The position numbers were made by a program, and so were the translations under genes. From Piscinibacter sp. (lineage in GTDB: Bacteria; Pseudomonadota; Gammaproteobacteria; Burkholderiales; Burkholderiaceae_C), in contig JAHBZL010000014.1 in assembly GCA_019635485.1 (NCBI GenBank), forward strand, positions 50,587 to 114,586: a DNA stretch of 64,000 bases, read 5' to 3'. The notes beneath the pieces were generated by a model. The model was not told the DNA's origin. It did no database searches and saw nothing but the letters and a program-made list of their open reading frames with translations. This document shows, one piece after another, positions 3,385 through 58,752 of the stretch (the stretch's first letter is position 1; each line of letters begins with the position of its first letter).

Positions 3385-3412
3385 ACCGGCCTGCGACGTT
3401 TGTCCGCCCGGC

Positions 3413-5695: not shown

Positions 5696-6171
5696 CGGCG
5701 CTTCGCGGCCGCGCGCAGTTCGTCGGCCGCGGCGTGGATCGCGGCGCGGATGCGCGGGTAGGTGCCGCAGCGGCACAGGTTCGTGATCGCCGCATCGATG
5801 TCGGCGTCGGTCGGGTCCGGCTCACGCTCCAGCAGCGCGGCCGCGGCCATCAGCATGCCGCTCTGGCAGTAGCCGCATTGCGGCACCTGCTCGGCGATCC
5901 AGGCCCGCTGCAGCGGGTGCGGCTGCGCCGCGCTGCCGAGCGCCTCGATCGTGCGCACCGTGCGGCCGGCCACGGCCGACAGCGGCAGCACGCAGCTGCG
6001 CTGCGCCTGGCCGTCCACGTGCACGGTGCAGGCGCCGCAGGCGGCCACGCCGCAGCCGAACTTGGTGCCGGTCAGCTGCAGCACGTCGCGCAACGCCCAC
6101 AGCAGCGGCATGTCCGGCGCCACCGCCTCGTCGGGCAGTTCGCGCAGGGAGCCGTTGACGTGGAGCTGCAT
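5692..6171 (-). CDS. 2Fe-2S subunit of isoquinoline oxidoreductase-type hydroxylase
   Basis: A 159-residue two-domain ferredoxin-like subunit. The N-terminal plant-type cluster uses Cys40, Cys45, Cys48 and Cys60; the C-terminal helical domain binds a second cluster with Cys99, Cys102, Cys133 and Cys135. All eight ligands are present. It passes electrons from the molybdenum subunit encoded immediately downstream, with which it overlaps by 4 bp (ATGA). It has no signal peptide of its own, so it would be exported only by riding with the large subunit, as known for this family. Confidence 0.88.
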
Positions 6172-6269
6172 GCGGGCGGGTCGCTGGGGCGGGCCCGCAT
6201 TGTGGGCTCAGATCGGCCCGGCGCTGTTCCTCGATGTGTCGGCGCGGGGCCGAGGCCCCGGCCGCCGCG

Positions 6270-8846: not shown

Positions 8847-8893
8847 CGGTAGTCTCCGGAAGCGGTGCGCGCGGTGACGATCGGGCGGTGGTC

Positions 8894-11176
8894 TCAGGGT
8901 TCGCCGTCCAGCGCCCCCTGGGTGGCGTACTGCAGCAGCGAGACGCCCGTTTCGCTCAGCACCAGACCCTCGCTGAGCACCAGGCCCTCGCTCAGCACGA
9001 GACCCTCGCTGAGCACCAGGCCCTCGCTGAGCACCAGGCCCTCGCTGAGCACGAGACCCTCGCTGAGCACGAGGCCCTCGCTGAGCACCAGGCCCTGGCT
9101 GAGCGAGGTCCCGCTGCCGCTGGCGAGCCAGCCCGACAGCGTGCCGGTTGGGATGAACACGCCGGTGCGGCCGATGCGCGAACTGACGCCGGCCAGCGAT
9201 CCGCCGTCGACCACGCCGGAGGTGATCAGCGTCTGGTTGCCCGGGGTGGTCTCGGTGAAGGTGCGCACGAACGTGTTGCCCGGCTGGCCATACGTTGCGC
9301 TCCAGTAGACGGGGGTGCGCTTGCGCACGATGCCGCCGGCCCAGACCAGGCGGTGATCCCAGACGGGCTGGAACTTGGTGAGCAGCGCGCTGCCGCTGAG
9401 GATGCGGTTGCCGCCGGCGAACACCATGCGCGACCAGCCGGCGGCGTTGCCGTGCAGCGTCGAGCTGGGGGTCGGCATGCTCGCGCCGCTGCGCAGCAGC
9501 GAGGTGCCGGCGCTCATCCGGCCGGCTTCGACCTCGCCGGCGATGTCGGTGCGCAGCGCCTTCGCCAGCGCGATCGCGCCATCGACGTTCAGCAGCCCGG
9601 CGCCCTGCTCCAGCAGGTTCGCCCCGGCCATCGGCTGCGCGCTGTACTGCAGCATGGCCTTGATCAGCGGCGGCGTCAGGCCGGGATTGGCCTGCAGCAT
9701 CAGCGCCACCGTGCCGGCGACGACCGGTGCGGCCGTCGAGGTGCCGCTCATCATCATCACCGACTCGGTGTAGTACTGCGTGACGCCGACCGGCGCGACC
9801 AGCGCGCTGTAGTTCGACGCCGCCAGCGCGTTCCAGCTGGGGTAGTAGCCGGTGGACGTGGCGGCCGCGGCGACGATGCGGTTGCCGGGCGCGACGAGGT
9901 CCGGCTTGAGCAGGTTGTCCGGGCGGCGCACGCCCGAGGCATCGACCCACGCGCCGCGCGTCGGGCCGCGCGAGCTGAAGTTGTTGACGACGTCGTCGTT
10001 GCGGCCGGCCGTGCCCTTCAGGTTCACGGCGCCGACGGTGATGACGCTCGGGTCGTTGCCCGGCGACGCGATCGCCCCGTAGACCTCGGCGCCGTTGGCG
10101 GCCAGCCCGAAGTTGCCGGCCGCGACCACGACGGTGATGCCGGCCGCGCTGGCGCTGCGCACTGCGACGCACAGCGGGTCGATGCGCCAGCTGTCGGTCG
10201 ACGCGGTCGCGAGGCTCAGGTTCATCACGCGGATGTTGTATTCGCGGGCGTGGTAGATGACCCAGGCGATGCCTTCCAGCGCATCGGTGAGCGTGCCCTC
10301 GCCGTTGCCGTCGAGCACGCGCACGTCGTACACGTCGGCGCCCGGCGCGATGCCGGTGTGGTCCGGCGCGCTGTAGAAGCCGAAGCCGCGGCCGGCCGCC
10401 ACCGAGGCGACGTGCGTGCCGTGCCCATAGGGATCCTGCGTGCCGGCGTTGTCGGCCGCGATCGCACTTTCGTAGCTCATCAGTGCCAGGCTGCCGGGCA
10501 CCGGGCCGGTCGTGCTGTCGACGCCGATCGTCCAGCTCGCCAGGTTGGCATTGCGCAGGTTGACGTTGCGGCGCACGCGCGAGCCGCCGGCGCCGTCGCT
10601 GAAGTCGCGGTGGATCTTCATGACGCCGGAATCGAGCACCGCGATGCCGACGCCGCTGCCGTCCAGCCCGTTGTAGCTGCCCGCCGCGTAGGTGCGCACG
10701 CGGCTGGTCAGCACGCCGGAGGCGGATTCGAGCGTGCTCGCGCTGCGCTGCACCTTGCGGTTCGGCGACACGCCCAGCACGTCGGGACGCTGCGCGATCG
10801 CGGCCAGGCGCGCGGCCGGCAGCTGCACCGTCAGCGCATTCATCGCGTCATGCCGCGCATGCACCGAACCGCCCAGGCGCAGCACCTGCGCGCGCAGGTC
10901 GGCGAAGTCCGGGTCGCTGCCGTCGGTGACGACGATCGCCTGCACGTGCCGCACGCCGCGCACGTCACGCGCCCAGCGTTCACGCGGCGCGCGCACCGAA
11001 CTCGACTCGCGGTCGAAGTCGCGCGCGATCTTGGCCCGCGTCCGTTCGCTGATCGGTTGCGCCTCGGCGGGCGCCGCCACCAGCAGCGCGAGCACGGCGG
11101 CCCCGACGGCCAGCAACCACGTCAGCGGCTGCCAGCGCCGCTCCAGCAGCACGATGAAGGCGATCGGACGAGACAT
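8894..11176 (-). CDS. Secreted subtilisin-like serine protease (peptidase S8) with LVLSEG repeats
   Basis: A 760-residue S8 protease. A charged N-terminus is followed by a hydrophobic signal ending near AEAQ (about residue 40), then an inhibitor-like propeptide. The catalytic triad is visible: Asp in AVLDSGVM, His in YGHGTHVA and Ser in MSGTSTAAP, with the oxyanion Asn in VAAGN. Near the C-terminus eight tandem copies of LVLSEG precede a short tail ending DGEP. Repeats are not part of the catalytic fold and may serve in surface attachment or assembly. The downstream c-di-GMP gene suggests a link to a surface or biofilm role (inference). Confidence 0.88.
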   Translation of the reverse strand: MSRPIAFIVLLERRWQPLTWLLAVGAAVLALLVAAPAEAQPISERTRAKIARDFDRESSSVRAPRERWARDVRGVRHVQAIVVTDGSDPDFADLRAQVLRLGGSVHARHDAMNALTVQLPAARLAAIAQRPDVLGVSPNRKVQRSASTLESASGVLTSRVRTYAAGSYNGLDGSGVGIAVLDSGVMKIHRDFSDGAGGSRVRRNVNLRNANLASWTIGVDSTTGPVPGSLALMSYESAIAADNAGTQDPYGHGTHVASVAAGRGFGFYSAPDHTGIAPGADVYDVRVLDGNGEGTLTDALEGIAWVIYHAREYNIRVMNLSLATASTDSWRIDPLCVAVRSASAAGITVVVAAGNFGLAANGAEVYGAIASPGNDPSVITVGAVNLKGTAGRNDDVVNNFSSRGPTRGAWVDASGVRRPDNLLKPDLVAPGNRIVAAAATSTGYYPSWNALAASNYSALVAPVGVTQYYTESVMMMSGTSTAAPVVAGTVALMLQANPGLTPPLIKAMLQYSAQPMAGANLLEQGAGLLNVDGAIALAKALRTDIAGEVEAGRMSAGTSLLRSGASMPTPSSTLHGNAAGWSRMVFAGGNRILSGSALLTKFQPVWDHRLVWAGGIVRKRTPVYWSATYGQPGNTFVRTFTETTPGNQTLITSGVVDGGSLAGVSSRIGRTGVFIPTGTLSGWLASGSGTSLSQGLVLSEGLVLSEGLVLSEGLVLSEGLVLSEGLVLSEGLVLSEGLVLSETGVSLLQYATQGALDGEP
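8955..9098 (-). repeat. Eight 18-bp tandem repeats coding for LVLSEG
   Basis: Eight head-to-tail units of 18 bp lie in frame in the protease gene. The units differ at only three positions, all third codon bases (Gly GGC/GGT, Leu CTG/CTC, Leu CTC/CTG). The one exception is a Glu-to-Gln change at the N-terminal edge of the array. The peptide is thus identical in all copies although the DNA has diverged. Confidence 0.95.
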
Positions 11177-11340
11177 TGACTTCGCTCCCTGGGCGCGCGT
11201 GCGCCTTCTGTGGTGTTGCCCATCGGACTCGACGCGACACCATGTGTCCGTCTGTATCTGATTGCATCCTAGGGGGGCGAATAAATGGCGTCAGCAGGTC
11301 TTTGGGCGATTTATCCCAAAACGCGGCACAAATTCCCGTG

Positions 11341-11366
11341 AAAACTTCCGCCCCCGGCGGGGACGG
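11341..11366 (-). terminator. Possible rho-independent terminator after the M14 peptidase gene
   Basis: Read on the minus strand, a GC-rich stem built from CCG...CGG arms (11348-11366) is followed by a short TTTT run at 11344-11341. It lies just past the stop of the M14 peptidase gene. The stem has a mismatch and the T run is short, so this is moderate evidence. The remaining bases to 11177 form the leader of the protease gene. Confidence 0.4.
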
Positions 11367-11382
11367 ATCCGGCACCGAAGAG

Positions 11383-13092
11383 TCAGTCGAGACTGACCTC
11401 GGTGCGCACCGCACCGGCGCGGTCGGCACGCGCGGTCAGCGCGAGCCGCGTGCCGGCCGGTGCGCGCACGACCCATTCGGCCACGGCCCGGTCGCCGGTC
11501 ACCTCGCGGTTGGGGAGGAAGGCGATCTGCGAGGCTTTCGGGGCGTGGCCCTCGAGCTGCGGGCCCTCGATGCGCTGCTTGCCGGCCAGCAGCGTGACCG
11601 CGCCGTCGCCGTCGGGCAGGTGGATCTCGAACATCACCCCACGCACCACCTTGCGCTGCAACGCGCGCTGCGTGACGTAGGCCGGCAGCCAGCCGCTGTT
11701 GGCGACCGCCATGCGCACGCGCCAGGTGTCGGGTCCGAGGGCCCGCACCTCGGTGCGCAGCAGTTCGAGCCGCGGCAGCGACAGCGCGACCTGCGTCAAC
11801 CAGGCCGGGAAACGCGCCGCCTCGCGCTCACGCAGCGCCGGCGGCGGATTGCGCCAGTAGTTCAGCTTGTCCCAGCCGCCGATCTCGACCGGCCCGAGCT
11901 GCGGATGCCTGAACGGCCGCCAGTCGACGTGCGCGCGCCCATCGCACTGTTCGTCGCTCCACTTCAGCAGCTTGAGGTCGTCCTCGACCGGGTGCTCGCG
12001 GAACCAGTCGATCCACTTGTAGTCCTTGATGTCCGCGGCCTGGTTCGGCGACCACAGCTCGACCACCCAGAACAGCGCGCCGAGGTGCTCGTACAGCCAG
12101 TCCTGCGTGCCGCCGATGGTCTCCTTCGGGTGGTACTTGAAGTCGTGCCAGATGCTGACCACGGGGTAGCCGGTCAGCTTCTCGCCCAGCGCCGAGAAGC
12201 GCTTGTAGGACCACAGGTCCTCCGGGATCATGTCGTCGTCGCTCTGCGTGCCCATCGGGCGCAGGATCACGCCGCTGTGCGTGTGGAAGCTGACCGCCGC
12301 GCCGATGTTCGGGTGCGCGACCACGAAGTCCACCATCGCCCGCACCTCGGGTTCGCTGGTCGGGTACGGTCCCGCGCCGACCTGCTCGTACTCCTGGCGC
12401 CAGTGGGACGGGAAGTTGCGGTTCAGGTCCAGGCCCTCGACGTCGCGGTTGACGCGCGTGGTCAGCCCGTTCCAGTCCTTCAGCGTGCCTTCGGGCAGCA
12501 GCCGGTAGTACTCGCCGCCGAACTCGCCGGGCTCGCGCGGGACCATGAGCCGCGGGTCCTGCGGGCACTTCTTGTACGTGCCGTGCGGATCCGGGATGCG
12601 CATCGTCAGCACGCGGCCGTCGCCGTCGATGTCCTCCACCGTCAGGCCGTCGACCGGCTCCTCGTCGAACGGCCAGTGGCGCGTCGACGAGCGGATGTGG
12701 CGCGGCCGGTCGGCGAGCGCCAGCTCGGCGCCGTCCGGGCACAGGCGCGGGCACAGGTAGAGGGTGCGCGTGTCCAGCAGCTGCGTGATCGCCGCGTCGC
12801 TGCCGTAACCGGTCACGAGCCGGTGCAGGTAGAGCAGCACCGCGATGCAGGCGGTCAGTTCGGCCGCGTGGATGTTGCCGTCGGCCCAGAAGGCCGGCTT
12901 GTCCGGCGCCGCGCCGGTGGCGCGGTTGGTGAGCGTCGCGACCCAGATGTCGCGACCCTCGTGGCTCTTGCCGATCGAGGACACCTCGACCAGGTCCGGG
13001 TGCGCGTCGGCATAGTCGAACAGCAGCCGGGTCAGCGCCTCGTGACGCGGAAAGGTGTCGAAGCGGGGGATCGGGGTCGCCGGTCGGGTCAT
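11383..13092 (-). CDS. M14-family zinc carboxypeptidase-like protein
   Basis: A 569-residue metallopeptidase of family M14. The zinc motif HAAE is at residues 75-78, the third ligand is the His in SFHTHSG, the substrate-binding DLNRNF lies between, and the catalytic Glu is in VVELW. No signal peptide is visible, so a cytoplasmic location is likely. About 150 residues after the catalytic domain form a beta-rich tail of unknown role. I chose the ATG at 13092 (MTRPATP) over an upstream in-frame start because it lies 7 bp after the preceding gene. The natural substrate is unknown. Confidence 0.85.
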   Translation of the reverse strand: MTRPATPIPRFDTFPRHEALTRLLFDYADAHPDLVEVSSIGKSHEGRDIWVATLTNRATGAAPDKPAFWADGNIHAAELTACIAVLLYLHRLVTGYGSDAAITQLLDTRTLYLCPRLCPDGAELALADRPRHIRSSTRHWPFDEEPVDGLTVEDIDGDGRVLTMRIPDPHGTYKKCPQDPRLMVPREPGEFGGEYYRLLPEGTLKDWNGLTTRVNRDVEGLDLNRNFPSHWRQEYEQVGAGPYPTSEPEVRAMVDFVVAHPNIGAAVSFHTHSGVILRPMGTQSDDDMIPEDLWSYKRFSALGEKLTGYPVVSIWHDFKYHPKETIGGTQDWLYEHLGALFWVVELWSPNQAADIKDYKWIDWFREHPVEDDLKLLKWSDEQCDGRAHVDWRPFRHPQLGPVEIGGWDKLNYWRNPPPALREREAARFPAWLTQVALSLPRLELLRTEVRALGPDTWRVRMAVANSGWLPAYVTQRALQRKVVRGVMFEIHLPDGDGAVTLLAGKQRIEGPQLEGHAPKASQIAFLPNREVTGDRAVAEWVVRAPAGTRLALTARADRAGAVRTEVSLD

Positions 13093-13099
13093 GGGTGGG

Positions 13100-13861
13100 T
13101 CAGTGCAGCGCGAGTCGGTGGCCGTCCTGGAACACGGCCAGCTCGCCGGGGGCAAGCGCGGTCCAGGTCTCGTCGGTGGTCAGCGGCTCGGTGACCACGA
13201 CGGCGACCCGGTCGGTCGCGGCGGTCACGGCCGAGAAGTCGATGCTCAGGTCCTCGTCGGCCAGCCGCGCGCGCCGGAACGGGTGCGCGCGCTCGATGTA
13301 GGCGAGCCGCGTCGAGCAGTGCGCCCACAGCGCCTGGCCGTTGGAGAGCAGGAAGTTGAAACTGCCGCGCCCGGCGATCGGCAACGCCAGCTCGCGCAGC
13401 GTCGCGCTCAGCTCGGCCACGCTCGGCACGGCGGCATGCGCCTTGGCCAGCTCCTGCATCAGCCAGCAGAAGGCGTGTTCGCTGTCCGTGTCGCCGACCG
13501 GCCGGAACGAGGCGTGCAGGGGCGGCGCGAAGTCCTTCAGGTCGCCGTTGTGCGCGAACACCCAGTAGCGCCCCCACAGCTCACGCTGGAACGGATGGGT
13601 ATTCTCCAGCGCCACGCGGCCCTGCGTGGCCTTGCGGATGTGCGCGAGGATGTTGTCGCTGCGGATCGGGTAGCGCCGCACCATCTCCGCCACCGGGGAG
13701 CAGCGGGCGCTCTGGGCATCGACGAACAGGCGCACGCCGCGCCCCTCGAAGAAGGCGATGCCGAAGCCGTCCCGATGCTCCTCGGCCCGCGTCGCGAAGC
13801 CGGTGAAGCTGAACACGACGTCGGTCGGCGTGTTGGCGTTCAGTCCGAGCAGCTGGCACAT
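13100..13861 (-). CDS. Class II glutamine amidotransferase (YafJ-like)
   Basis: A 253-residue protein of the Ntn-hydrolase glutamine amidotransferase fold. Cys2, exposed after removal of the initiator Met, is the nucleophile. HRDGFG, NTHPF and FAHNGDL are the conserved glutamine-binding segments. It is a stand-alone domain like YafJ or EgtC, without the partner domain of GlmS or PurF, so its amine acceptor is unknown. The M14 peptidase gene follows 7 bp downstream on the same strand, suggesting a shared transcript. Confidence 0.85.
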   Translation of the reverse strand: MCQLLGLNANTPTDVVFSFTGFATRAEEHRDGFGIAFFEGRGVRLFVDAQSARCSPVAEMVRRYPIRSDNILAHIRKATQGRVALENTHPFQRELWGRYWVFAHNGDLKDFAPPLHASFRPVGDTDSEHAFCWLMQELAKAHAAVPSVAELSATLRELALPIAGRGSFNFLLSNGQALWAHCSTRLAYIERAHPFRRARLADEDLSIDFSAVTAATDRVAVVVTEPLTTDETWTALAPGELAVFQDGHRLALH

Positions 13862-48392: not shown

Positions 48393-49061
48393 ATGCGCAT
48401 CCTGCTGGCCGAAGACGAACCCGAGCTGGCGCACTGGCTGGTGCGCGCGCTGGCGCAGAGCGGCTTCCAGGTCGACTGGGTCGACGACGGCCGCATGGTG
48501 CGGCGCAGCCTGAAGGCCACCGCCTACGACGCGCTGGTGCTCGACCTCGGCCTGCCCGGCGTCGGCGGGCACGACGTGCTGGCCGACCTGCGCGAGGCCG
48601 GCCAGCGCCTGCCGGTGCTGATCCTGACCGCGCGCGATTCGCTCATCGAACGTGTCAGCACGCTGCACGAGGGCGCCGACGACTTCCTCGCCAAACCCTT
48701 CGAGCTGCCCGAACTGGAGGCGCGCCTGGTGGCGCTGATCCGGCGCGCGCGCGGCAGCGACCGGCCGCGCTTCGCCTGCGGGCCGCTGGCCTACGACAGC
48801 GCCGGCAAGCAGTTCACGCTCGGCCACGAGCCGCTCGCGCTGACGCCGCGCGAACACGGCGTGCTGCGTGCGCTGATCCAGCGCAGCGGCGAGCCGCTGT
48901 CCAAGCAGGAGATCCTCGATCGTGTGTTCTCCGACGAGCAGGACGTGCAGCCCGATGTCGTCGAGGTGCTGGTGCACCGGCTGCGCAAGCGGCTGCAGGC
49001 CAGCCCGGTGACGATCCGCACGCTGCGCGGGCTCGGCTACGTCCTCGAAAGCAGCGCTTGA
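48393..49061 (+). CDS. tctD: OmpR-family response regulator TctD
   Basis: A 222-residue regulator. The receiver domain has the phospho-acceptor Asp51 in LVLDLGLPG, acidic residues at 7-9 and the conserved Lys in LAKPFELPELEAR. A winged-helix DNA-binding domain follows (about 125-220). With the sensor encoded immediately downstream it resembles TctDE, which induces tricarboxylate uptake. The sensor start overlaps its stop. A direct repeat before tctC is a candidate target. Confidence 0.9.
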   Translation: MRILLAEDEPELAHWLVRALAQSGFQVDWVDDGRMVRRSLKATAYDALVLDLGLPGVGGHDVLADLREAGQRLPVLILTARDSLIERVSTLHEGADDFLAKPFELPELEARLVALIRRARGSDRPRFACGPLAYDSAGKQFTLGHEPLALTPREHGVLRALIQRSGEPLSKQEILDRVFSDEQDVQPDVVEVLVHRLRKRLQASPVTIRTLRGLGYVLESSA

Positions 49062-50482
49062 ATCTGGAGGCCTGGCATCGCCTGAGCCTGCGCCGCACGC
49101 TGCTGACGGTGCTGCTGCCGGGCATGCTGCTGGTGGTCGGCGCCGAGCTGTGGCTGACCTGGCGCACCGCGGTCGATGCGTCGAACGCCGCCTACGACCG
49201 CTCGCTGCTCGGCGCGATCAAGTCGATCGACGCCAACATCTCGACTGCCAGCGGCGGCCTGGGCGTCGAGCTGCCCTACCGCATGCTCGAGTTCTTCCAG
49301 CTCACCGCGAGCGGCTCGGTCTTCTACCGCATCGCCACGGAGGACGGCCTGGTCGAGATCGGCGACACCGCGCTGCCGCCGCCGGCGCGGCCGCTGCAGC
49401 TCGGGCAGCCGCAGTTCGCCGACACGGCCTACTTCGGCACGCCGGTGCGCCTGGGCAGCTACACGCGCCTGCTCGACCGGCCGCTGGCCGGCCAGACGCA
49501 GCGTCAACGCGTCGTCATCCAGGTCGCCGAAACCCTCGGCTCGCGCGAGCAGTTCACGCGCTCCCTGGTGCTGCAGGCGCTCGGACGCGACCTGGCGCTG
49601 GTGCTGGTGGCCGGCCTGCTGCTGGCGGCCGCGGTGGCCTGGGCGCTGCGCCCGCTGGCGCGCCTGCGCGCCGAGGTCGAGGCGCGCTCGCCGCAGGATC
49701 TGCGGCCGGTCGCCGCCACCGCGGTGCCGGCCGACGTGCGCCCGCTGGTGGACGCGATCAACGGCCACGTCGAGCGCACGCAGCGCATGACCGAGGCGCG
49801 CCGGCGCTTCATCGACGATGCCTCGCACCAGCTGCGCACGCCGCTGGCGACACTCGCCACGCAGGTGGGCTTCGCGCTGCGCGAGTCGGACCCGGCGGGG
49901 CTGCGCGGGGCACTGCACGCGGTCAAGGACCAGCTCGACGAGGCGATCCGCCAGACCAACCAGATGCTGGTGCTGGCGCATGCCGACGCGGCCGAGCTCG
50001 TCACCGAGCCGGTCGACCTGGTCGCCTTCGCCGAGGACATGGCACGCCGCTGGTGGAAGGAGGCCGCCGAGCGCGGTGTTGACCTGGGCCTGGATGCCGC
50101 GCCGGGTCCGTTGCGCGCGCCGGTGCACGCCGGGCTGCTGCGCGAGGCCCTGGCCAACCTGCTGCACAACGCGATCCGCTACACGCCGCGCGGCGGCCAG
50201 GTGACGGTGCGCGTCATGTCCGAGGACGGCATGCTGCGCCTCGGCGTCGTCGACGACGGCCCCGGCATCCCGGCCGACGAGCTCGCACGGGCCGGCGAGC
50301 GCTTCTTCCGTGCCAGCAATGCCGGCCAGCCGGGCTCCGGGCTGGGGCTGGCGATCGTGCGCTCGATCGCCGAGCGCCATGGCGGCCGGTTCGAGCTCGC
50401 GGCCGGTCCCGGCGGGCGTGGCCTGGCAGCCTGGATCATCCTGCCGGGAAGCACCGCCCCCGCCCGCAAACCCTCGGGTTAA
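49058..50482 (+). CDS. tctE: Sensor histidine kinase TctE
   Basis: A 474-residue membrane kinase. There are two membrane helices (about 12-32 and 175-200) around a periplasmic sensor domain, then HAMP-like, dimerisation and ATPase domains. The phospho-acceptor is His257 in DDASHQLRTPLATL; the ATPase motifs are NAIRYTP, DDGPGIP and GSGLGLAIVRSI. The start is TTG at 49058, overlapping the tctD TGA (TTGA); no ATG occurs before the first helix. It probably senses an external tricarboxylate. Confidence 0.88.
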   Translation: MNLEAWHRLSLRRTLLTVLLPGMLLVVGAELWLTWRTAVDASNAAYDRSLLGAIKSIDANISTASGGLGVELPYRMLEFFQLTASGSVFYRIATEDGLVEIGDTALPPPARPLQLGQPQFADTAYFGTPVRLGSYTRLLDRPLAGQTQRQRVVIQVAETLGSREQFTRSLVLQALGRDLALVLVAGLLLAAAVAWALRPLARLRAEVEARSPQDLRPVAATAVPADVRPLVDAINGHVERTQRMTEARRRFIDDASHQLRTPLATLATQVGFALRESDPAGLRGALHAVKDQLDEAIRQTNQMLVLAHADAAELVTEPVDLVAFAEDMARRWWKEAAERGVDLGLDAAPGPLRAPVHAGLLREALANLLHNAIRYTPRGGQVTVRVMSEDGMLRLGVVDDGPGIPADELARAGERFFRASNAGQPGSGLGLAIVRSIAERHGGRFELAAGPGGRGLAAWIILPGSTAPARKPSG

Positions 50483-50503
50483 CCCTCGTTATTGGGCGAA
50501 TTC

Positions 50504-50525
50504 GCTGAAAGCCGGCTGAAAGTCG
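50504..50525 (+). promoter_or_regulatory. 11-bp direct repeat, candidate TctD operator
   Basis: GCTGAAAGCCG is directly followed by GCTGAAAGTCG, a tandem repeat with 11-bp period and one mismatch. OmpR-family regulators typically bind two direct half-sites spaced by one helical turn next to the -35 region. TATCGT at about 50533 could serve as a -10. The site is 62 bp before tctC and 22 bp after tctE. Confidence 0.55.
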
Positions 50526-50586
50526 GGCCTCGATATCGTGCCTCCACGCTCCCGGAACGCCGGGATCCGACCCTCGAACAGGAGAC

Positions 50587-51567
50587 ATGATGAACTTGCG
50601 CACCCCCCTCGCCGCCGCCCTCTCGCTCGCCACGTCGCTGGCCCTGGCGGGCCCGCTCGACAAGACCGAATGCATCGCACCGGCCAAGCCCGGCGGCGGC
50701 TTCGACCTGACCTGCAAGCTGGCCCAGAGTGCCCTGATGGACGGCAAGTACATCCCCGACCCGATGCGCATCTCCTACATGCCCGGCGGCATCGGGGCGG
50801 TGGCCTACAACGCGATCGTCGCGCAGCGCCCGGCCGAGGCGAACACCATCGTCGCCTTCTCCGGCGGCTCGCTGCTGAACCTGGCCCAGGGCAAGTTCGG
50901 CCGCTACAACGAGAACGACGTGCGCTGGCTGGCCGCGATCGGCGCCGACTTCGGGGCGGTGATCGTGGCCGAGAACTCGCCGTTCAAGACCCTCGCCGAC
51001 CTGGTCGCCGCGGTGAAGGCGGACCCGACCAAGGTGGTGTTCGGCGCCGGCGGCACGGTCGGCAGCCAGGACTGGATGAAGGCCGCGCTGACCGCCAAGG
51101 CCGCCGGGCTGAGCCCGAAGACGATGCGCTTCGTCGCTTTCGAAGGTGGCGGCGAGGCCCTGACGGCGCTGCAGGGCGGCCACGTGCAGGTGTACTCGGG
51201 TGACGCCTCCGAGGCCGAGGAGCAGATCAAGGCCGGCGCGAAGATCCGCCTGCTCGCCGTGCTGGCCGACAAGCGCCTGGAAGGCAGCCTCGCCAAGGTG
51301 CCGACCGCCAAGGAGCAGGGCTACGACATCGAGTGGCCGATCATCCGCGGCTACTACCTCGGCCCGAAGGTCAGCGACGCCGACTACAAGGTCTGGACCG
51401 ACACCTTCAACAAGATGATGGCCACCCCGGCCTTCGAGAAGCTGCGCGCCGAGCGCGGTCTGTTCCCGTTCGCCAAGACCGGCAGCGAGCTCGACGCCTA
51501 CGTCAAGCAGCGCGTCGCCTCCTACCGCACGCTGGCCGGCGAGTTCGGCCTGAACGTCGCGAAGTAA
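50587..51567 (+). CDS. tctC: Tripartite tricarboxylate transporter substrate-binding protein TctC
   Basis: A 326-residue periplasmic binding protein with a short signal peptide (ending LALA, about residue 22). CIAPAKPGGGFDLTCKLAQS and MPGGIGAVAYNAIVAQ are the TctC/Bug carboxylate-binding loops. The ATG at 50590, three bases on, has better spacing from GGAG and may be the true start. It delivers substrate to the TctAB permease. Position after TctDE suggests induction by the same ligand. Confidence 0.92.
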   Translation: MMNLRTPLAAALSLATSLALAGPLDKTECIAPAKPGGGFDLTCKLAQSALMDGKYIPDPMRISYMPGGIGAVAYNAIVAQRPAEANTIVAFSGGSLLNLAQGKFGRYNENDVRWLAAIGADFGAVIVAENSPFKTLADLVAAVKADPTKVVFGAGGTVGSQDWMKAALTAKAAGLSPKTMRFVAFEGGGEALTALQGGHVQVYSGDASEAEEQIKAGAKIRLLAVLADKRLEGSLAKVPTAKEQGYDIEWPIIRGYYLGPKVSDADYKVWTDTFNKMMATPAFEKLRAERGLFPFAKTGSELDAYVKQRVASYRTLAGEFGLNVAK

Positions 51568-51616
51568 ACCCGTCAGCCCGGCCGGGCAGCTGCCCGGCCC
51601 TCCGAGGAGACGCTCC

Positions 51617-52063
51617 ATGAGCGACCGCATCCTGGGTGCGGCGTGCGTGGTCGTGGCCGCAGGCATGGCCTGGGCCGCGCAGGACTACGCCGCCCCGATC
51701 TCGTACGAACCCGTCGGCCCGCGCGCCTTCCCGCTGCTGCTGTCGGGCCTGCTGGCCGCCGGCGGCGCCTGGCTGGTGCTGCGCCCCGGCCCGCACGGCA
51801 GCGGGCTCGGCCTGGCCTCGCTGAAGACGCTGGGCCTCGCGGCCGCCGCCGTGTTCGCCTACGCACTGCTGTTCGAGTGGCTCGGCTTCACGCTCGCCAC
51901 CACGCTGATGGCGCTGCCGGTGGGCCTGGCCTTCGGCGGGCGCTGGACGCAGGCGCTGGCCGGCGGCGCCGGCCTGGGCATCGTGCTCTACCTGATGTTC
52001 GACAAGCTGCTCGACGTGGTGCTGCCCACCGGCGTGCTGTCGTTCCTGCTCGGAGGCCGTTGA
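51617..52063 (+). CDS. tctB: Tripartite tricarboxylate transporter small permease TctB
   Basis: A 148-residue membrane protein with four predicted helices and the family pattern SYEPVGPRAFPLLLSGLLAA. It is the small permease subunit paired with TctA. GAGGAGA precedes the ATG. Unusually, a dispersed repeat lies between it and tctA, where these genes are normally a few bases apart. Confidence 0.88.
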   Translation: MSDRILGAACVVVAAGMAWAAQDYAAPISYEPVGPRAFPLLLSGLLAAGGAWLVLRPGPHGSGLGLASLKTLGLAAAAVFAYALLFEWLGFTLATTLMALPVGLAFGGRWTQALAGGAGLGIVLYLMFDKLLDVVLPTGVLSFLLGGR

Positions 52064-52069
52064 ATGAAA

Positions 52070-52110
52070 CCCCCACGCTCACTTCGTTCGCTTCCCCCCG
52101 CGGGGGCGCG
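52070..52110. repeat. Dispersed C-rich hairpin repeat, copy 2 (inside the tct operon)
   Basis: A 41-bp element matching copy 1 (32195-32235) at 38 of 41 positions by eye. It contains the perfect 12-bp palindrome CCCCCGCGGGGG at 52095-52106. It starts 7 bp after the tctB stop and ends 32 bp before the tctA ATG. The hairpin could attenuate or stabilise the message between the two permease genes. Confidence 0.8.
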
Positions 52111-52142
52111 TCAGTCCCTTCGGACGGCCGGGCGGTACTGAC

Positions 52143-53657
52143 ATGGACACGCTTCAGTATCTGCTGGCCGGCTTCGGCGTCGCGCTGACGCCTGCCAACC
52201 TCGCGATGGCCGCGCTCGGCGGCCTGATCGGCACCATCGTCGGCATGCTGCCTGGCCTGGGCCCGATCAACGGCGTCGCGATCCTGATGCCGCTCGCCTT
52301 CGCGCTCAAGCTGCCGCCCGAGACCGCGCTGATCCTGCTCGCCGCGGTCTACATGGGCTGCGAGTTCGGCGGGCGCATCTCGTCGATCCTGCTGAACGTG
52401 CCGGGCGATGCCGGCGCGATCATGACCGCGATGGACGGCTACCCGATGGCGCGCCAGGGGCGCGGCGGCGTGGCGCTGTCGATCTCGGCCTGGAGCTCGT
52501 TCATCGGCTCGCTGGTCGCCACCATCGGCATCGTGCTGTTCGCGCCGCTGCTGGCGCGCTGGGCACTCGCCTTCGGGCCGGCCGAGTACTTCGCGCTGAT
52601 GTGCTTCGCCTTCGCCTGCATCACCGGGCTGATGGGCGACGCGCCGATGAAGGCCGCGCTGGCCGCGGTGCTCGGGCTGTCGCTGTCCACCGTCGGGCTG
52701 GACTCCAACTCCGGCGTGTACCGCTTCACCGGCGGCGACGTGCACCTGTCCGACGGCATCCAGTTCATCGTCGTCGTGATCGGTGTGTTCTCGGTCAGCG
52801 AGATCCTGCTGATGCTCGAGCAGCACCACACCAGCGACGGCGTGATCAAGGCCACCGGCCGTGCGCTGTTCAACCTGAAGGAGATGGCGCAGACCTGGTG
52901 GGGCACGCTGCGCTCGGCGCTGGTCGGCTTCGTCGTCGGCGTGCTGCCCGGTGCCGGCGCGACCATCGCCAGCGCGATGACCTACTCGATGGAGAAGCGC
53001 CTCGCCGGCGCCGACGGCGACTTCGGCAACGGCGACATCCGCGGCGTCGCGGCGCCCGAGGCGGCCAACAACGCCTCGGCGGCCGGCTCGTTCGTGCCGA
53101 TGCTGACGCTGGGCGTGCCCGGCTCGGGCACCACGGCGGTGATGGTGGGCGCGCTCTCGCTCTACAACATCACGCCCGGCCCGGCGCTGTTCCAGCAGAA
53201 CCCGACGCTGGTGTGGGGCCTGATCGCCTCGCTGTTCATCGCCAACCTGATGCTGCTGGTCATCAACATCCCGCTGGTCAGCGTGTTCACGCGCATGCTG
53301 CGCACCCCGAACTGGCTGCTGGTGCCGGCGATCCTGGCGATCAGCGCGGTCGGCGTCTACTCGGTGCACGCCACCACCTTCGACCTGCTGCTGATGTCCG
53401 GCTTCGGCGTCGTCGCCTTCCTGCTGCGCAAGCAGGGTGTGCCGATGGCGCCGCTGATCCTCGGCTTCGTGCTCGGCGACATGATGGAGCAGAACCTGCG
53501 CCGCGCGCTGTCGATCACCAACGGCGAACTCGGCATCCTCGTCGAGAGCCCGATCTCCAAGGGCCTGTGGCTGCTCGCCGCGGCGATGGTGACGGTGCCG
53601 CCGCTGCTGCGCCTGCTGGCCCGCCGCCGCCGCCCGACCGTCGCGGCCGCGCACTGA
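52143..53657 (+). CDS. tctA: Tripartite tricarboxylate transporter large permease TctA
   Basis: A 504-residue inner-membrane protein with about 11-12 helices. [20 protein letters not shown] and [20 protein letters not shown] are the repeated TctA signatures, with [20 protein letters not shown] nearby. It drives carboxylate import by ion gradient with TctB and TctC. No Shine-Dalgarno sequence is evident before its ATG, because the dispersed repeat fills the upstream gap. Confidence 0.93.
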
Positions 53658-53681
53658 TTCCCCCACTTCCAGGAGATTCCC

Positions 53682-54962
53682 ATGCAGATCACCGGCATGC
53701 TGCACGGTGCCCGGCTACTGCGGCTGGTGGACTTCCCCACCGCCGAAGTGCTCGGCCCGGACGCGTCCGAAGACCAGATCAGCGCGCTGATCCACCGCCA
53801 CGGCCAGGTGTTCGTCAAGCCGCTGTTCCGCGGCGGCGTCGGCAAGAAGGGCAAGTCCGGCCTGATCGGCCGCGCCACCACGCTGGCCCAGGCGCTGGCC
53901 GAGAAGGAGCGGCTCTACTTCGTCGAGCACCGCCACGGCCATGCCGTCGCCAAGGCCAACGGCGTCACCTTCGAGGGCGGCGTGCCGGCCGAGCACGAGG
54001 TCTATTTCTCGATCACCGACGACACGCGCTTCCGCGCGCCGACGCTGACGCTGACGCACCGCGGCGGCGTCGACATCGAGGAGCTGCCGCGCTCCGAGGT
54101 CGCGACCATCCCGTTCGACGCGCTGACCGGGCTGAAGGCCTTCGTCGTCGCCAACGCGCTGTCGGACATCGGCGCGCCGCGCGAGATCGTCTCGCCGCTG
54201 GTGCAGCACCTGCCCAAGCTGTGGGAGCTGATGCACCACTACGGCATGACGGCGCTCGAGCTGAACCCGATCCGCATGCGCGCCGACGCCGGCGGCCGCC
54301 TGACGCCGGTGGCCTGCGACTTCAAGTGCGGCTTCGACCGCGACGACCCGCGTGTCGCGCGCCTCGGCCTGCCGGACCACCTGTTCGCCGCCGACGTCGG
54401 CGCCTTCGAGCAGGAGGTGAACCAGCTGCGCACGCACCAGGGCCAGTCGGACGTGTTCGTGATCAACGAGCGCGGCACGATCCTCGCGCCGACCTTCGGC
54501 GGCGGCGCCAACAGCCTCGTCACCGAGGTGCTCGGCGAGGCCGCCAGCATCAGCTCGGACTTCGGCGGCAACCCGCCGTACGAGAAGATGAAGCAGGTGG
54601 CGCGCATCTGCTACCGCCACTTCCTGGCCCAGAGCAACGTGCTGTTCGTGATCGGCGGCAAGTCGAACAACACCGACATCCACGAGACGCTGCGCGCCAT
54701 CGGCGATGCGCTGCGCGAGCACTTCGCGACGCACGGCCCGACGCCGCTGTACGTGGTGGTCGGGCGCGGCGGGCCGAATCTGGTGCGCGGCTTCGGCGCG
54801 CTGGCCGACACCTGCGAGGCGCTCGGCCTGCCCTACCGCTTCTTCGGCTTCGACAGCGCGATCAGCGAGGTCGTCAACTACGCGAAGAAGGTCGACGACT
54901 GGATGAAGGCCGGCGGCCGTGCGTTGATCGCGCGCCAGATCGGCCTCCGCGACGCCGCCTGA
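53682..54962 (+). CDS. ATP-citrate lyase-like ATP-grasp/citrate-binding subunit
   Basis: A 426-residue protein that follows the N-terminal part of ATP-citrate lyase rather than plain succinyl-CoA synthetase beta. The ATP-grasp domain includes Lys46 in VFVKPLF, HRGGVDIEELPR and LELNPIRM. The C-terminal part contains GGGANSL, GGKSNNTDIHETLRAIGDAL (from Gly325) and VVGRGGPN with Arg362. These align by eye with GGGAS, GGSIANFTNVAATF and VRRGGPN of human ACLY, the citrate-binding segments. It would activate citrate with ATP and pass it to the subunit encoded 11 bp downstream. A different tricarboxylate substrate is possible. Confidence 0.75.
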   Translation: MQITGMLHGARLLRLVDFPTAEVLGPDASEDQISALIHRHGQVFVKPLFRGGVGKKGKSGLIGRATTLAQALAEKERLYFVEHRHGHAVAKANGVTFEGGVPAEHEVYFSITDDTRFRAPTLTLTHRGGVDIEELPRSEVATIPFDALTGLKAFVVANALSDIGAPREIVSPLVQHLPKLWELMHHYGMTALELNPIRMRADAGGRLTPVACDFKCGFDRDDPRVARLGLPDHLFAADVGAFEQEVNQLRTHQGQSDVFVINERGTILAPTFGGGANSLVTEVLGEAASISSDFGGNPPYEKMKQVARICYRHFLAQSNVLFVIGGKSNNTDIHETLRAIGDALREHFATHGPTPLYVVVGRGGPNLVRGFGALADTCEALGLPYRFFGFDSAISEVVNYAKKVDDWMKAGGRALIARQIGLRDAA

Positions 54963-54973
54963 GGAGAACCGAC

Positions 54974-57688
54974 ATGCATGCCAAAGGCCTCGACGGCTTC
55001 CCCTACTACCTCGGCATCGGCTCGCTGGCCGACGTCGCCACGCGCGGCAACCGCGTCTGCGTGCTCAACATCCTGGGCGGCGAAAGCCGGCAGGTGACGC
55101 CGACCAGCCACGTGTTCTCGGGCGGCAACGTCGTGTTCGGCACCTCGCCGGGACGCGGCGGCCAGGCCCTGAAGACCGCGCTCGGCGACATCCCGGTGTT
55201 CAACAACGTGCGCGAAGGCCTGGAGGCCGGGCACGCGTTCGACACCGGCGTGGTCTACCTGCCGCCCTCGGGCGTGCGCGACGGCGTGGCCGAACTGATC
55301 CGCGTGAACGGTGGCGCGCTGAAGAGGATCGTCATCGTCACCGAGAAGATCGCGGTGCACGACGCACGCGAGATCCGCGCGATGGCGCAAGGTGCCGGCG
55401 TCGACGTGATCGGCGGCAACTGCCTGGGCGTGGCCGACTCGTGGAGCCGCGTGCGCATCGGCGGCGCGCTCGGCGGCGACCATCCGGAAGAGACGCTGCT
55501 GCAGGGCACCGTCGCGGTGTTCTCCAACTCCGGCGGCTTCACCACCACCATCGCGCAGTACCTCGCCACCGAGGGCTGGGGCACGACCACGCTGGTGTCC
55601 TCGGGCAAGGACGTCTACATCCACTACGCGGCGCGCGACTTCGCGCATGCGCTGCGCCACGACGGCCGCTCGCGCGCCGCGGTGCTGTACTGCGAACCCG
55701 GCGGCTACTACGAGCACGGCATAGCCTGGGGCAAGCCGGTGGTGGCCTGCGTGGTCGGGCGCTGGAAGTCCAAGCTGACGCGCGCGGTCGGCCATGCCGG
55801 CGCGATGGCCGGCTCGGGCGACAGCGCGGCCGACAAGGAACGCTGGTTCATGGAGGCCTTCGGCGTCGACGCGATCTTCACGCCCGAGCGGCCGGTGGTC
55901 TCGAAGCAGGGGGCGGTGGTGACGAACATCGCGCACATCCCGGCGGCGCTGAGCGCGGTGATGGCGCTGTCGGGCGCGAAGCCCGACTTCGCGCCGCGCG
56001 GCAGCCTGACGCTCAAGCCCTGGCTGGCCAACGACCAGGGCCTGGCGCTGCCGGCCGAGCTGGCGCTCGCGCCGGTGACCGCGCCCGAGCCCTACGCGGT
56101 GCAGATCGCCGAGCTGGGCCGGCAGGTCGGCGCGGTGGTCGCACGCCAGAACATGAAGGACAAGTCGGGCGCCTCGGTGATGGACCCGACCACCCAGGTC
56201 ACCTCGGTGCACGGCCACTCGGTGCTCGAGCTGGCGCTGCAGCCGCTGCAGGCCAACTTCGCGCTGCCGCTGGTGCATGAGGCGGCGGGCCCGAACGACC
56301 GCGCGATGCTCGACATCGCCGTGGCCGCCGAGGTCAACCTGGTCGGCGACCCGATCCTGGTCGCCGCCGACGCGGCGCGCGAGGCCGGCAACTCGCCCAA
56401 CACGGTGATGGCCGCGGCGGTGGCGATCGTCGGCCCGCAGCGCGTGCAACGTGCGCTCGCCTGCTCGCGCGCGCTGATCGACCTGTTCGTCGGCTCGACG
56501 CTGAAGGAAGGCCACCACGTCGACTTCGACCACAGCGGCATCCGCGTCGACGCGGCCACGCGCGCGCTGTTCGTGGCGCGCGACGACGAGCGCGACGACC
56601 CGCGCGCCGCGGCGATGCTGGCGGCGGTGCGCGAACGCGGCGCCAAGTCGGTGTTCCTCGATTTCCTGGCGCGGCTCGACGCGCCGCTGTCACGCGACGC
56701 GGTGCTGGCCGCGATCGCGACGACCATCGCCTGGGGCCCGCTGGTGCGCAAGCGCATCAGCCGCCTGACCGCCGAGACGCTGCCCTGGTACCTGCGCCTG
56801 TACGGCGTGATGGTCGGCGCCACCATCCCCGGCCGGCACCACCAGAGCGGCTCGCTGTGCGGCATCTCGCGCGCCGAGCGCTTCGGGCAGTGGAGCATGG
56901 CCGACCTGTGTTATCTGGCGATGACCGGCCGCAAGCCGACGCCGGAGCAGGCGCTGCCGCTGCAGATCCTGGTCGGCCTGCTGATCTCCAACGGGCCGGG
57001 CGCGATCTCGCTGCAGGGCGCCAAGGGCGCGGTCTCGGCCGACGGGCCGCAGACGCCCGGCCGGGTGCAGATCAACAAGGCGATGGTCGGCTTCCTGACG
57101 CACACCGGCTACAGCCACGGCGGCAACGGCTTCGAGGGCATGGCCTTCCTGCTCGAGCAGTTCAAGGGCCTGGACCTGAAGGACCCGACCGACCCGAACC
57201 ACGGCCTGGACTTGAAGGCGATGGCCACCGCGTTCGCGAAGCGCTACAAGGCCGAGAAGCGCAGCGCGAAGGAGGCCGGCAGCGAGCTGCGGGCGCTGCC
57301 CGGCGTGCACCACCCGGTGTTCAAGGGCAAGCCGGTCAACCACGACCCGCGCGAGCGCTTCGTGGCGCGCCACCTGGCCGAGAACGGGCAGTACAACGTC
57401 TTCCACGCCTACTACCGCGAGCTGGTGCAGGCGCTCTACGACGCCGGCGCCACGCCCTATGTGTTCTGCGTCAACGTCGATGCGGTGATCGCCGCGCTGC
57501 TGCTGGCGCTGCTGTGGGACGAACACCGGCGCGGCGCGCTGAGCGTGCGCGACCTGGAGAATGCGGCCTTCACCGTGTTCCTCTACGGCCGCATGATCGG
57601 GGCCGCCGCCGAGATCGACGACCACCTGAACCGCGGGCGCAACATGGACACGCGCACCCCCGAAGCCCAGTGCAGCCACGTGCTGTAG
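54974..57688 (+). CDS. ATP-citrate lyase-like large subunit (CoA-ligase plus citrate-synthase-like domain)
   Basis: A 904-residue fusion. Residues 1-330 form a CoA-binding and succinyl-CoA-ligase alpha-type part with the phospho-acceptor His274 in VGHAGAMAG. Residues about 610-904 form a citrate-synthase-like domain with the catalytic set His715 (GYSHGGNG), His780 (GVHHPVFK) and Asp836 (CVNVDAV). This is the AclA layout, and the expected reaction is citrate plus CoA plus ATP to acetyl-CoA and oxaloacetate. AclA is normally about 610 residues; here about 280 extra residues (about 330-610) lie in the middle without a domain I recognise. It follows the ATP-grasp gene by 11 bp, with GAGGAGA before its ATG. 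Confidence 0.75.
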   Translation: MHAKGLDGFPYYLGIGSLADVATRGNRVCVLNILGGESRQVTPTSHVFSGGNVVFGTSPGRGGQALKTALGDIPVFNNVREGLEAGHAFDTGVVYLPPSGVRDGVAELIRVNGGALKRIVIVTEKIAVHDAREIRAMAQGAGVDVIGGNCLGVADSWSRVRIGGALGGDHPEETLLQGTVAVFSNSGGFTTTIAQYLATEGWGTTTLVSSGKDVYIHYAARDFAHALRHDGRSRAAVLYCEPGGYYEHGIAWGKPVVACVVGRWKSKLTRAVGHAGAMAGSGDSAADKERWFMEAFGVDAIFTPERPVVSKQGAVVTNIAHIPAALSAVMALSGAKPDFAPRGSLTLKPWLANDQGLALPAELALAPVTAPEPYAVQIAELGRQVGAVVARQNMKDKSGASVMDPTTQVTSVHGHSVLELALQPLQANFALPLVHEAAGPNDRAMLDIAVAAEVNLVGDPILVAADAAREAGNSPNTVMAAAVAIVGPQRVQRALACSRALIDLFVGSTLKEGHHVDFDHSGIRVDAATRALFVARDDERDDPRAAAMLAAVRERGAKSVFLDFLARLDAPLSRDAVLAAIATTIAWGPLVRKRISRLTAETLPWYLRLYGVMVGATIPGRHHQSGSLCGISRAERFGQWSMADLCYLAMTGRKPTPEQALPLQILVGLLISNGPGAISLQGAKGAVSADGPQTPGRVQINKAMVGFLTHTGYSHGGNGFEGMAFLLEQFKGLDLKDPTDPNHGLDLKAMATAFAKRYKAEKRSAKEAGSELRALPGVHHPVFKGKPVNHDPRERFVARHLAENGQYNVFHAYYRELVQALYDAGATPYVFCVNVDAVIAALLLALLWDEHRRGALSVRDLENAAFTVFLYGRMIGAAAEIDDHLNRGRNMDTRTPEAQCSHVL

Positions 57689-58752
57689 TCCTGCCGTCGC
57701 GCCGCATCGCCCACGCGGCCGCCACGCTGGCGGCCGCGCTGGCGGCGGCGCTGCTCTTCGAGCGGCTGCACGCGCCGCTGCCGTGGATGACCGGCCCGCT
57801 GCTGATCGTCGGGCTGGGCGGCGTGCTCGGGCTGCCGGTGCACTGCCCGGCCGCGCTGCGCCACGCCGGCCAGTGGTCGATTGGTACCGCGCTCGGCCTG
57901 TACTTCACGCCCGGCGTGCTGGCCGCGGTCGCGGGGCTGGCGCCGGCGCTGCTGGCCGGCATCGCGTGGGCGATGCTGATGGGCTGGCTGTTCTACCGCT
58001 GGCTGGCCGCCGTGTCCGGTGCCGCGACGGCGCAGGAGCGTGCCACCGCGTGGTTCGCCGCCGCGATCGGCGGTGCCTCCGAGATGGCCGTGCTGGGCGA
58101 GCGCCACGGCGGGCGCATCGACGGCATCGCCGCGGCGCATTCACTGCGGGTGCTGATCGTCGTGCTGGGCGTGCCCTTCGGCCTGCAATGGGCCGGCCTG
58201 CACGGCCTCGCACCGCCGCCGCCCGGCCCGGCCGAAGTGCACCCCGCCGGGCTCGCGCTGCTGGCCGCGCTGACGCTGGCCGGTTCGCTGCTGCTGCGCC
58301 GCTGGCACGTGCCGAACGCCTGGGTGCTGGGCTCACTGGCCGTCGCCCTGTTGCTGACCGGCAGCGGCGTCGAGCTGTCGGCGTGGCCGCGCCCGTTCAG
58401 CGACGCGGCGCAACTGCTGATCGGCTGCGCGCTCGGGCAGCGCTTCACGCCCGACTTCGTGCACCGCGCGCCGCGCTGGCTGGCGGCGGTGGCGCTGGGC
58501 ACGCTGGCCCTGCTGGCCGGTTCCGCCGGCTTCGCGTGGCTGCTGGCCAGCGCTGCGGCCCGGCCCTGGGCCACGGTGCTGCTGGGTACGGTGCCAGGCG
58601 GCATGGCCGAGATGTGCATCACCGCCAAGGTGCTGCAGCTCGGCGTGCCGACCGTGACGGCCTTCCACGTCACGCGCTACGTCGCGGTGCTGCTGGGCAC
58701 CGGGCCGCTGTTCCAGTGGGCGGAGCGGCGCCGGCGGGCCCACGCCGGCTGA
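57670..58752 (+). CDS. AbrB-family membrane protein
   Basis: A 360-residue inner-membrane protein built of two similar halves, each with several helices; GGASEMAVLGERHG and VPGGMAEMCITAKVLQ are the paired signatures of this family (often called AbrB duplication or ammonia monooxygenase-like). Despite the name it is unrelated to the DNA-binding AbrB. The best start is the GTG at 57670, overlapping the preceding gene by 19 bp. It often accompanies TctABC systems and may be a transporter. Its role here is unproven. Confidence 0.78.
   Translation: MQPRAVVLPSRRIAHAAATLAAALAAALLFERLHAPLPWMTGPLLIVGLGGVLGLPVHCPAALRHAGQWSIGTALGLYFTPGVLAAVAGLAPALLAGIAWAMLMGWLFYRWLAAVSGAATAQERATAWFAAAIGGASEMAVLGERHGGRIDGIAAAHSLRVLIVVLGVPFGLQWAGLHGLAPPPPGPAEVHPAGLALLAALTLAGSLLLRRWHVPNAWVLGSLAVALLLTGSGVELSAWPRPFSDAAQLLIGCALGQRFTPDFVHRAPRWLAAVALGTLALLAGSAGFAWLLASAAARPWATVLLGTVPGGMAEMCITAKVLQLGVPTVTAFHVTRYVAVLLGTGPLFQWAERRRRAHAG

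Follow-up and report, generated by a model that had tools for sequence, protein, structure and literature searches.

Why does an operon for tricarboxylate uptake carry what looks like its own ATP-citrate lyase (ACL)? The question is raised by a locus in a 64,000-nucleotide stretch of DNA from Piscinibacter sp. (hereafter the window), which belongs to contig C6; the assembly comprises 5.0 Mb in 81 contigs and is 84% complete. Here, the genes tctD-tctE-tctC-tctB-tctA are followed on the plus strand by the genes for two enzyme subunits, A and B (Table 1). We propose, with a probability of roughly 70%, that this is a tricarboxylate uptake operon with its own type II ACL, which would use ATP to cleave citrate obtained from imported tricarboxylates. 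The type II family itself has already been described; its uptake-linked variant is new. No description of an ACL beside tct genes was found in the open-access full-text literature (PMC), a collection with subscription papers largely outside its scope.

The original prediction, made from the DNA alone, had claimed a seven-gene order on a single strand with gaps of 24 bp (TctA-A) and 11 bp (A-B), and both the coordinates, which are as first noted, and the Pfam matches confirm it. The other gaps measure 104 bp (TctE-TctC), 49 bp (TctC-TctB) and 79 bp (TctB-TctA), while tctE, read from an in-frame TTG at 49058, overlaps the stop codon of tctD. TctA, TctB and TctC together make a complete Tct (TTT) transporter by Pfam. 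The five tct genes are of the same kinds as those of the Salmonella-type tctDE-tctCBA citrate uptake system, an operon in which no citrate-cleaving enzyme is known.

Which enzyme do A and B encode? When the pair was compared with curated families, subunit A scored 52 bits against the SucC cut-off of 370 and 25 bits against the cut-off of 604 for the malate-coenzyme A (CoA) ligase beta subunit (NCBIfam), and subunit B scored 112 bits against the SucD equivalog cut-off of 336. A SucCD or malate-CoA ligase identity was rejected, since all these scores lie far under the cut-offs and B also carries a fused lyase-like domain. The CitE, CitF and CitD families of the CitDEF citrate fermentation lyase were not matched by A or B in Pfam or NCBIfam. 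Among solved structures, the nearest by sequence to both subunits is the citryl-CoA synthetase of Hydrogenobacter (6hxq; for A its large subunit 6hxq_B at 9e-29, for B 3.5e-34), with ACLs and succinyl-CoA synthetases next in both cases. AlphaFold2 models of A and B reached a mean predicted local distance difference test score of 80.5 and 83.2 and a predicted template modelling score of 0.56 and 0.60, which makes domain placement unsure; Foldseek searches with them gave the same nearest folds as sequence (for A, 6hxq_B, 6hxi and human ACLY). Unlike the citryl-CoA synthetase system, where synthetase and lyase are separate proteins, the window's enzyme has its lyase-like domain fused to the small-subunit module.

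Full-length homology links the pair to 20 loci for which we use the working label Magnetococcus-like; A adjoins B in 20/20 of them, with identities of 63-69% for A and 52-57% for B. The name type II ACL reportedly comes from Hugler and Sievert 2011, whom other papers cite for it. The primers for type II ACL given in PMC3522073 translate to VAKEEWF and NGFEAIA, and these peptides fit the motifs KE-WF and NG(F/Y)E of the window's enzyme family. In their passages on the enzyme, PMC3522073, PMC6783814 and PMC6315080 treat type II ACL as a putative enzyme of tubeworm symbionts and magnetotactic cocci, the reported hosts being magnetotactic cocci, symbionts of Riftia, Tevnia and other tubeworms, and Thioflavicoccus; PMC6315080, in its corresponding part, sets the enzyme in a context of 2-oxoacid:ferredoxin oxidoreductase, aconitase and isocitrate dehydrogenase (IDH). 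The window's enzyme has the same two subunits as the known type II ACL, of about 426 and 900 amino acids. Because the primer motifs are conserved, the homology is full-length and one tree group (see below) has a gene setting of the reductive tricarboxylic acid (rTCA) type, we assign the pair, on its sequence, to the type II ACL family. The pair had first been likened to human ACLY, and as far as modules go this stands: ATP-grasp/citrate-binding, phospho-histidine ligase and citrate-synthase-like modules are shared with type I ACL (Chlorobium AclAB, human ACLY), with Foldseek matches to 6hxj and ACLY at 12-22% identity in structural alignments. Close kinship had to be given up, as the pair is of type II and nearest among solved structures to citryl-CoA synthetase, and a plain human-type ACLY identity was rejected.

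The residues of the presumed active sites are constant. Subunit A keeps Gly296, Asn329, Asn330, Thr331 and Arg362 in 35/35 rows, rTCA-type and uptake-linked proteins together, which bears out the citrate-binding segments first noted in A. In the printed sequence alignment, G296, N329, T331 and R362 stand against G309, N346, T348 and R379 of human ACLY, the citrate-binding residues of that enzyme. In the alignment of subunit B, Glu124, His274, Asn673, His715, His780 and Asp836 are unchanged in 100/100 rows; phospho-His274 and Glu124 form the ligase signature, in line with the phospho-histidine loop proposed earlier. The citrate-synthase catalytic residues of the original prediction may survive in part. 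The invariant His715, His780 and Asp836 pair by eye with the motifs AHGG, GHRV and PNVD in the citrate synthase that the genome encodes, whereas a match to His900 of human ACLY is lost, Asn673 occupying the position placed by eye against it; this C-terminal comparison uses stretches of the human and pig enzymes. The His715/His780/Asp836 set looks more like citrate synthase than human ACLY.

Subunit B appears to be laid out as a CoA ligase (about residues 1-340), a degenerate citrate-synthase-like copy (about 365-592), which is extra relative to type I ACL, and a citrate-synthase-like/citryl-CoA-lyase domain (about 590-904). Its C-terminal third weakly matches citryl-CoA lyase (NF004869, E 2.3e-8, 34 bits where the cut-off is 212), and so does the corresponding domain of 16/16 relatives, weakly each time (best E 5e-10). 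In a profile comparison, residues 365-592 align in register with 590-904 at a probability of 88.6 and a score of 48.5, against a mean of 15 and a maximum of 27.3 for 60 column shuffles and 16 for the reversed profile; a smaller alignment of 48 rows gave a probability of 63. The degenerate copy keeps an Asp at 575 in 81/100 rows, and no counterparts of the His motifs were seen by eye in residues 365-592. This middle region seems to be a second, degenerate citrate-synthase-like repeat; an unrelated insert was set aside, given the register with the C-terminal domain and a score above all shuffles. The two copies may form an internal pseudo-dimer. For human ACLY, the relevant passages of PMC10115795 argue that the citrate-synthase domain is allosteric and that the ligase part can itself cleave citryl-CoA, an argument that would leave either a catalytic or an allosteric role for the type II C-terminal domain.

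How widespread is this pair, and how often does it sit beside uptake genes? At the level of the phylum, 39/398 genomes, among them the window's, have a homologue of B when fragments count and E may be as high as 1e-60, and the 20 loci retrieved from the other 38 all carry adjacent A and B. The family yields 21/399 genomes, again including the window's, and the genus 2 of the 7 other genomes searched (G003, G005). With E up to 1e-100, B is also found in 19 plasmid records; its annotation there, if any, is "CoA-binding protein" or "hypothetical protein". Named carriers of the pair include Piscinibacter defluvii, Halomonas, Sinorhizobium and Paraburkholderia. The A-B pair is patchily distributed. 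The complete tctD-E-C-B-A-A-B order is kept in G003 and G005 as well as in L062 and L127, both named loci from Burkholderiales, and this conservation takes the arrangement beyond chance; L056 and L058 show tctCBA-A-B, with other genes or none at the directly upstream tctDE position. Besides G000, G003, G005 and G053, 14 of 17 family loci were retrieved (G533, G755 and G814, with fragmented matches, were left out). Among these 14, tctA is seen in three (L206, L209, L213), TctDE with a gene of CitMHS length in three (L214, L216, L218), and a TctC-type gene with a porin in two (L207, L208). The contigs of L206, L207 and L208 are equal in length to those of L127, L059 and L064. Linkage to tct genes is frequent, not universal.

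A second A-B pair occurs in Piscinibacter defluvii (L022 of G003, 2672-13100), its B about 60% identical, beside divergent tct genes and an open reading frame that resembles malic enzyme by eye. Another pair lies on pUSP3 of Aminobacter sp. MSH1 (L167), a 97-kb plasmid of conjugative type; neighbouring annotations include a CBASS phospholipase and a nucleotidyltransferase.

For a wider sample, the best 80 of at least 513 relatives from a scan of genome contigs were used as named loci, so that counts lean to close relatives. The tree holds 100 rows: the 20 Magnetococcus-like loci, one paralogue, and 79 loci from a set of 81 made up of the window and the 80 named ones (L105 and L106, with a called B gene below 850 amino acids, were left off). 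It is unrooted, the root being for drawing only. Three groups emerged: Magnetococcus-like (20 rows, support 100), Gallionella-type (16 rows, support 99) and the window's group (64 rows), which is often found beside uptake genes. Outside the Gallionella-type group, tctA is present in 30/65 loci, at 1.3-6.8 kb from B; the 65 include the partial L105, and also L106, which has an IDH gene beside the pair. In 16/65, tctA immediately precedes A in the same orientation, at a distance of 7-428 bp; the arrangement is recurrent, and not unique to the window. The more distant tctA genes may be parts of adjoining, independent clusters. In the 20 Magnetococcus-like and the 16 Gallionella-type loci, several of which are short, the surroundings of the pair yielded no tctA. 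By simple arithmetic on the window's genome, with its five TctA genes in 5.0 Mb, a randomly chosen point would have a tctA within 10 kb about 2% of the time; hosts differ in their number of TctA genes. The 16 upstream TctAs fall into seven groups at 60% identity, against a single group at 70% for 15 of the 16 Bs, which argues that the link arose repeatedly. On the tree, "tctA within six genes" changes 15 times, at least 10 of them forced by strong branches, with loci cut short scored as lacking tctA. Two Halomonas species (L068, L113) have close Bs, the same downstream clusters and upstream TctAs below 60% identity, possibly a recent transporter swap.

The Gallionella-type group raises the possibility that the pair serves CO2 fixation in the rTCA cycle and that its tct neighbourhood is incidental. 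In 13 of its 16 rows, genes of 2-oxoacid:ferredoxin oxidoreductase type, aconitase or monomeric IDH stand within six genes (one representative was tested per gene cluster); a flavoprotein cluster in some of these loci is nearest TfrA, at 348 bits below the cut-off of 718. Among the retrieved relatives that are absent from the tree, L212 has an aconitase-like gene (27%) and a PrpF-like gene nearby, both weak. The window's genome also encodes two POR_N-family genes; the locus of one has matches to KorA (33%), KorB (35%) and KorC (26%) of L104. Set against this, kor, IDH and aconitase clusters occur within six genes in 0/64 rows of the window's group, both POR_N genes lie on contigs other than the pair's, and the second has no KorA match to L104 at 1e-5. 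Known type II ACLs are discussed, in the passages that treat them, as CO2-fixation enzymes, whereas the window's group branches apart from them and is often uptake-linked. The genome further contains one citrate-synthase-family gene and a RuBisCO large-subunit gene (G000:C3:39579-40502), and the repeated origin of the tct link also speaks against an incidental neighbourhood. We consider an rTCA role quite improbable, and an rTCA module in the window was rejected, as no 2-oxoacid:ferredoxin oxidoreductase gene lies beside the pair. The RuBisCO subunit, which by eye suggests form I, makes the presumed heterotrophy of the host doubtful; the host is possibly mixotrophic. Neither isocitrate lyase nor TcuA was found over cut-off in the genome, a weak absence in an 84%-complete assembly.

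Carriers other than Tct also stand beside the pair. A CitMHS-family gene follows B within about 30 bp in L214 and L218, and L216 has a candidate there by length. In L123 (Caballeronia arvi), B is followed by a 2HCT gene nearest citrate:cation symporters; SDF, ABC (NMT1) and MFS carriers are near the pair in other loci. Some relatives, though not the window, have genes resembling those of tcuABC, the tricarballylate utilisation genes, next to the pair. Clustering placed TcuA-like genes in four loci and TcuB-like genes in four, with L078, L079 and L100 among the carriers; the TcuA-like protein of L079 scores 681 bits against a cut-off of 369, the TcuB-like proteins of L078 and L059 pass an equivalog or subfamily cut-off, and L100 has the order tcuA-tcuB-A-B. 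On a Gemmobacter fulvus plasmid, A-B-thioesterase adjoins tcuB, tcuA, an annotated 4-oxalomesaconate tautomerase and tct genes.

An enzyme of the same architecture could instead act on another tricarboxylate (for example methylcitrate, hydroxycitrate or an acid of the gallate pathway), with citrate not the main substrate in the clade. TctC-type receptors bind diverse ligands, TcuAB occur near some pairs, and PrpF-cluster genes are present in 11 loci, the one tested scoring 516 bits against the 4-oxalomesaconate tautomerase cut-off of 440. We nevertheless find a different main substrate unlikely: the citrate-site residues of A do not vary between rTCA-type and uptake-linked proteins, CitMHS and 2HCT carriers adjoin some members, and tricarballylate and aconitate both reach citrate through aconitase. 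A methylcitrate enzyme was rejected, since the genome, at its 84% completeness, shows a single citrate-synthase-family gene and no sign of a separate methylcitrate synthase.

Profile scores, invariant residues and the recurring proximity of uptake genes support both the ACL-like identity of the pair and our model for import plus cleavage, which would run as follows. TctDE would sense an external tricarboxylate and induce the operon; TctC would capture the compound and TctAB import it. Citrate would be taken up directly or, in other hosts, formed from aconitate or tricarballylate. ATP would then phosphorylate His274 of B, citryl-phosphate would arise in the citrate site, and CoA would convert it to citryl-CoA, which would be split into oxaloacetate and acetyl-CoA; the C-terminal citrate-synthase-like domain would contribute either catalytically or allosterically. 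Both products could enter biosynthesis, and the two CO2-releasing steps of the oxidative TCA cycle would be bypassed. More broadly, the chances seem about even that this whole type II ACL clade serves the catabolism of environmental tricarboxylates and not CO2 fixation. The enzyme would then be patchily distributed, in part on plasmids, and linked time and again to Tct, CitMHS, 2HCT and ABC carriers and to TcuAB and PrpF-type genes, and its internal pseudo-domain copy may replace half of a citrate-synthase-type dimer. If so, an ATP-dependent route would be added to the bacterial use of environmental organic acids, and a catabolic ACL in hosts with a normal citrate synthase could yield false calls of autotrophy. 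Genome surveys use ACL genes as rTCA key enzymes, for example in the relevant part of PMC9802188.

Several observations weigh against the import-and-cleavage model. In the passages concerned, PMC3522073, PMC6783814 and PMC6315080 themselves term type II ACL "putative" or "postulated". The citrate-synthase-like domain of B has weak NCBIfam matches only, the sequence of the C-terminal domain had no meaningful match in the PDB at E up to 10, and hhalign of the C-terminal or middle part against the genome's citrate synthase was not significant. The TctD-type regulator scores 261 bits against the TctD equivalog cut-off of 337 (NCBIfam), and the 2HCT gene of L123 falls under both its NCBIfam cut-offs. 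The window's clade has a support of 86. No directly linked carrier is seen in 6/14 family loci (L210, L211, L212, L215, L217, L219; L211, L212 and L215 have ABC-type genes farther from the pair), and no tctA, tctD/E-like or rTCA-type gene lies within six genes of the pair in 30/81 loci, of which at least 10 end close to the pair and others do not. A 2-oxoacid:acceptor oxidoreductase is encoded elsewhere in the window's genome. Finally, a 4HBT thioesterase gene directly follows B in 10/76 loci, which simple citrate catabolism does not explain.

That thioesterase, of acyl-CoA type, could instead fit an anabolic supply of acetyl-CoA from internal citrate, for a storage polymer or lipid, with the transporter an exporter or unrelated. 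The analogy with eukaryotic ACLY points the same way, as does L213, where B is followed by a pyruvate dehydrogenase E1 gene (10233-12893). TctDE sensors and periplasmic binding proteins next to the pair suggest ligands from outside the cell, and differing uptake carriers recur there; we rate anabolic supply as less probable still than the rTCA role.

Table 1. Genes of the locus in the window, with the matches on which each assignment is based.
Feature	Length (amino acids)	Position	Strand	Basis
TctD-type response regulator	222	48393..49061	+	Pfam Response_reg + Trans_reg_C; best NCBIfam match TctD
TctE-type sensor histidine kinase		49058..50482	+	Pfam 2CSK_N, HisKA, HATPase_c; TTG start
TctC periplasmic tricarboxylate-binding protein	326	50587..51567	+	PF03401
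TctB small membrane subunit	148	51617..52063	+	PF07331
TctA large permease subunit	504	52143..53657	+	PF01970, 503 bits
Putative type II ACL subunit A, ATP-grasp + citrate-binding	426	53682..54962	+	PF16114 (Citrate_bind), PF08442 (ATP-grasp_2) above cut-off
Putative type II ACL subunit B	904	54974..57688	+	Pfam CoA_binding, Succ_CoA_lig; domain layout in text
AbrB-family (Gneg_AbrB_dup) membrane protein		57670..58752	+	PF05145, TIGR03082 above cut-off; GTG start

The interval first assigned to the system, 48393..58752, contains the seven genes and additionally takes in the AbrB-family gene, whose GTG start at 57670 overlaps the 3' end of the subunit B gene and which is possibly the last gene of the operon. 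Members of this AbrB-family cluster are near the A-B pair in 5/80 named loci (L069, L078, L079, L097, L130), and one is annotated near the pair on a Microvirga plasmid.

The thioesterase gene follows B in L059, L062, L069, L070, L071, L078, L079, L085, L086 and L105; the one tested is nearest the acyl-CoA thioesterase YciA, at 122 bits against a cut-off of 162. A protein of about 350 amino acids (cluster c8) is encoded in 15 loci (L065, L068, L069, L071, L077, L080, L085, L089, L093, L101, L116, L121, L124, L130, L132), mostly near tctDE-like genes. The one member tested had no Pfam match at 1e-10; for a relative, the annotation is ABC substrate-binding protein.

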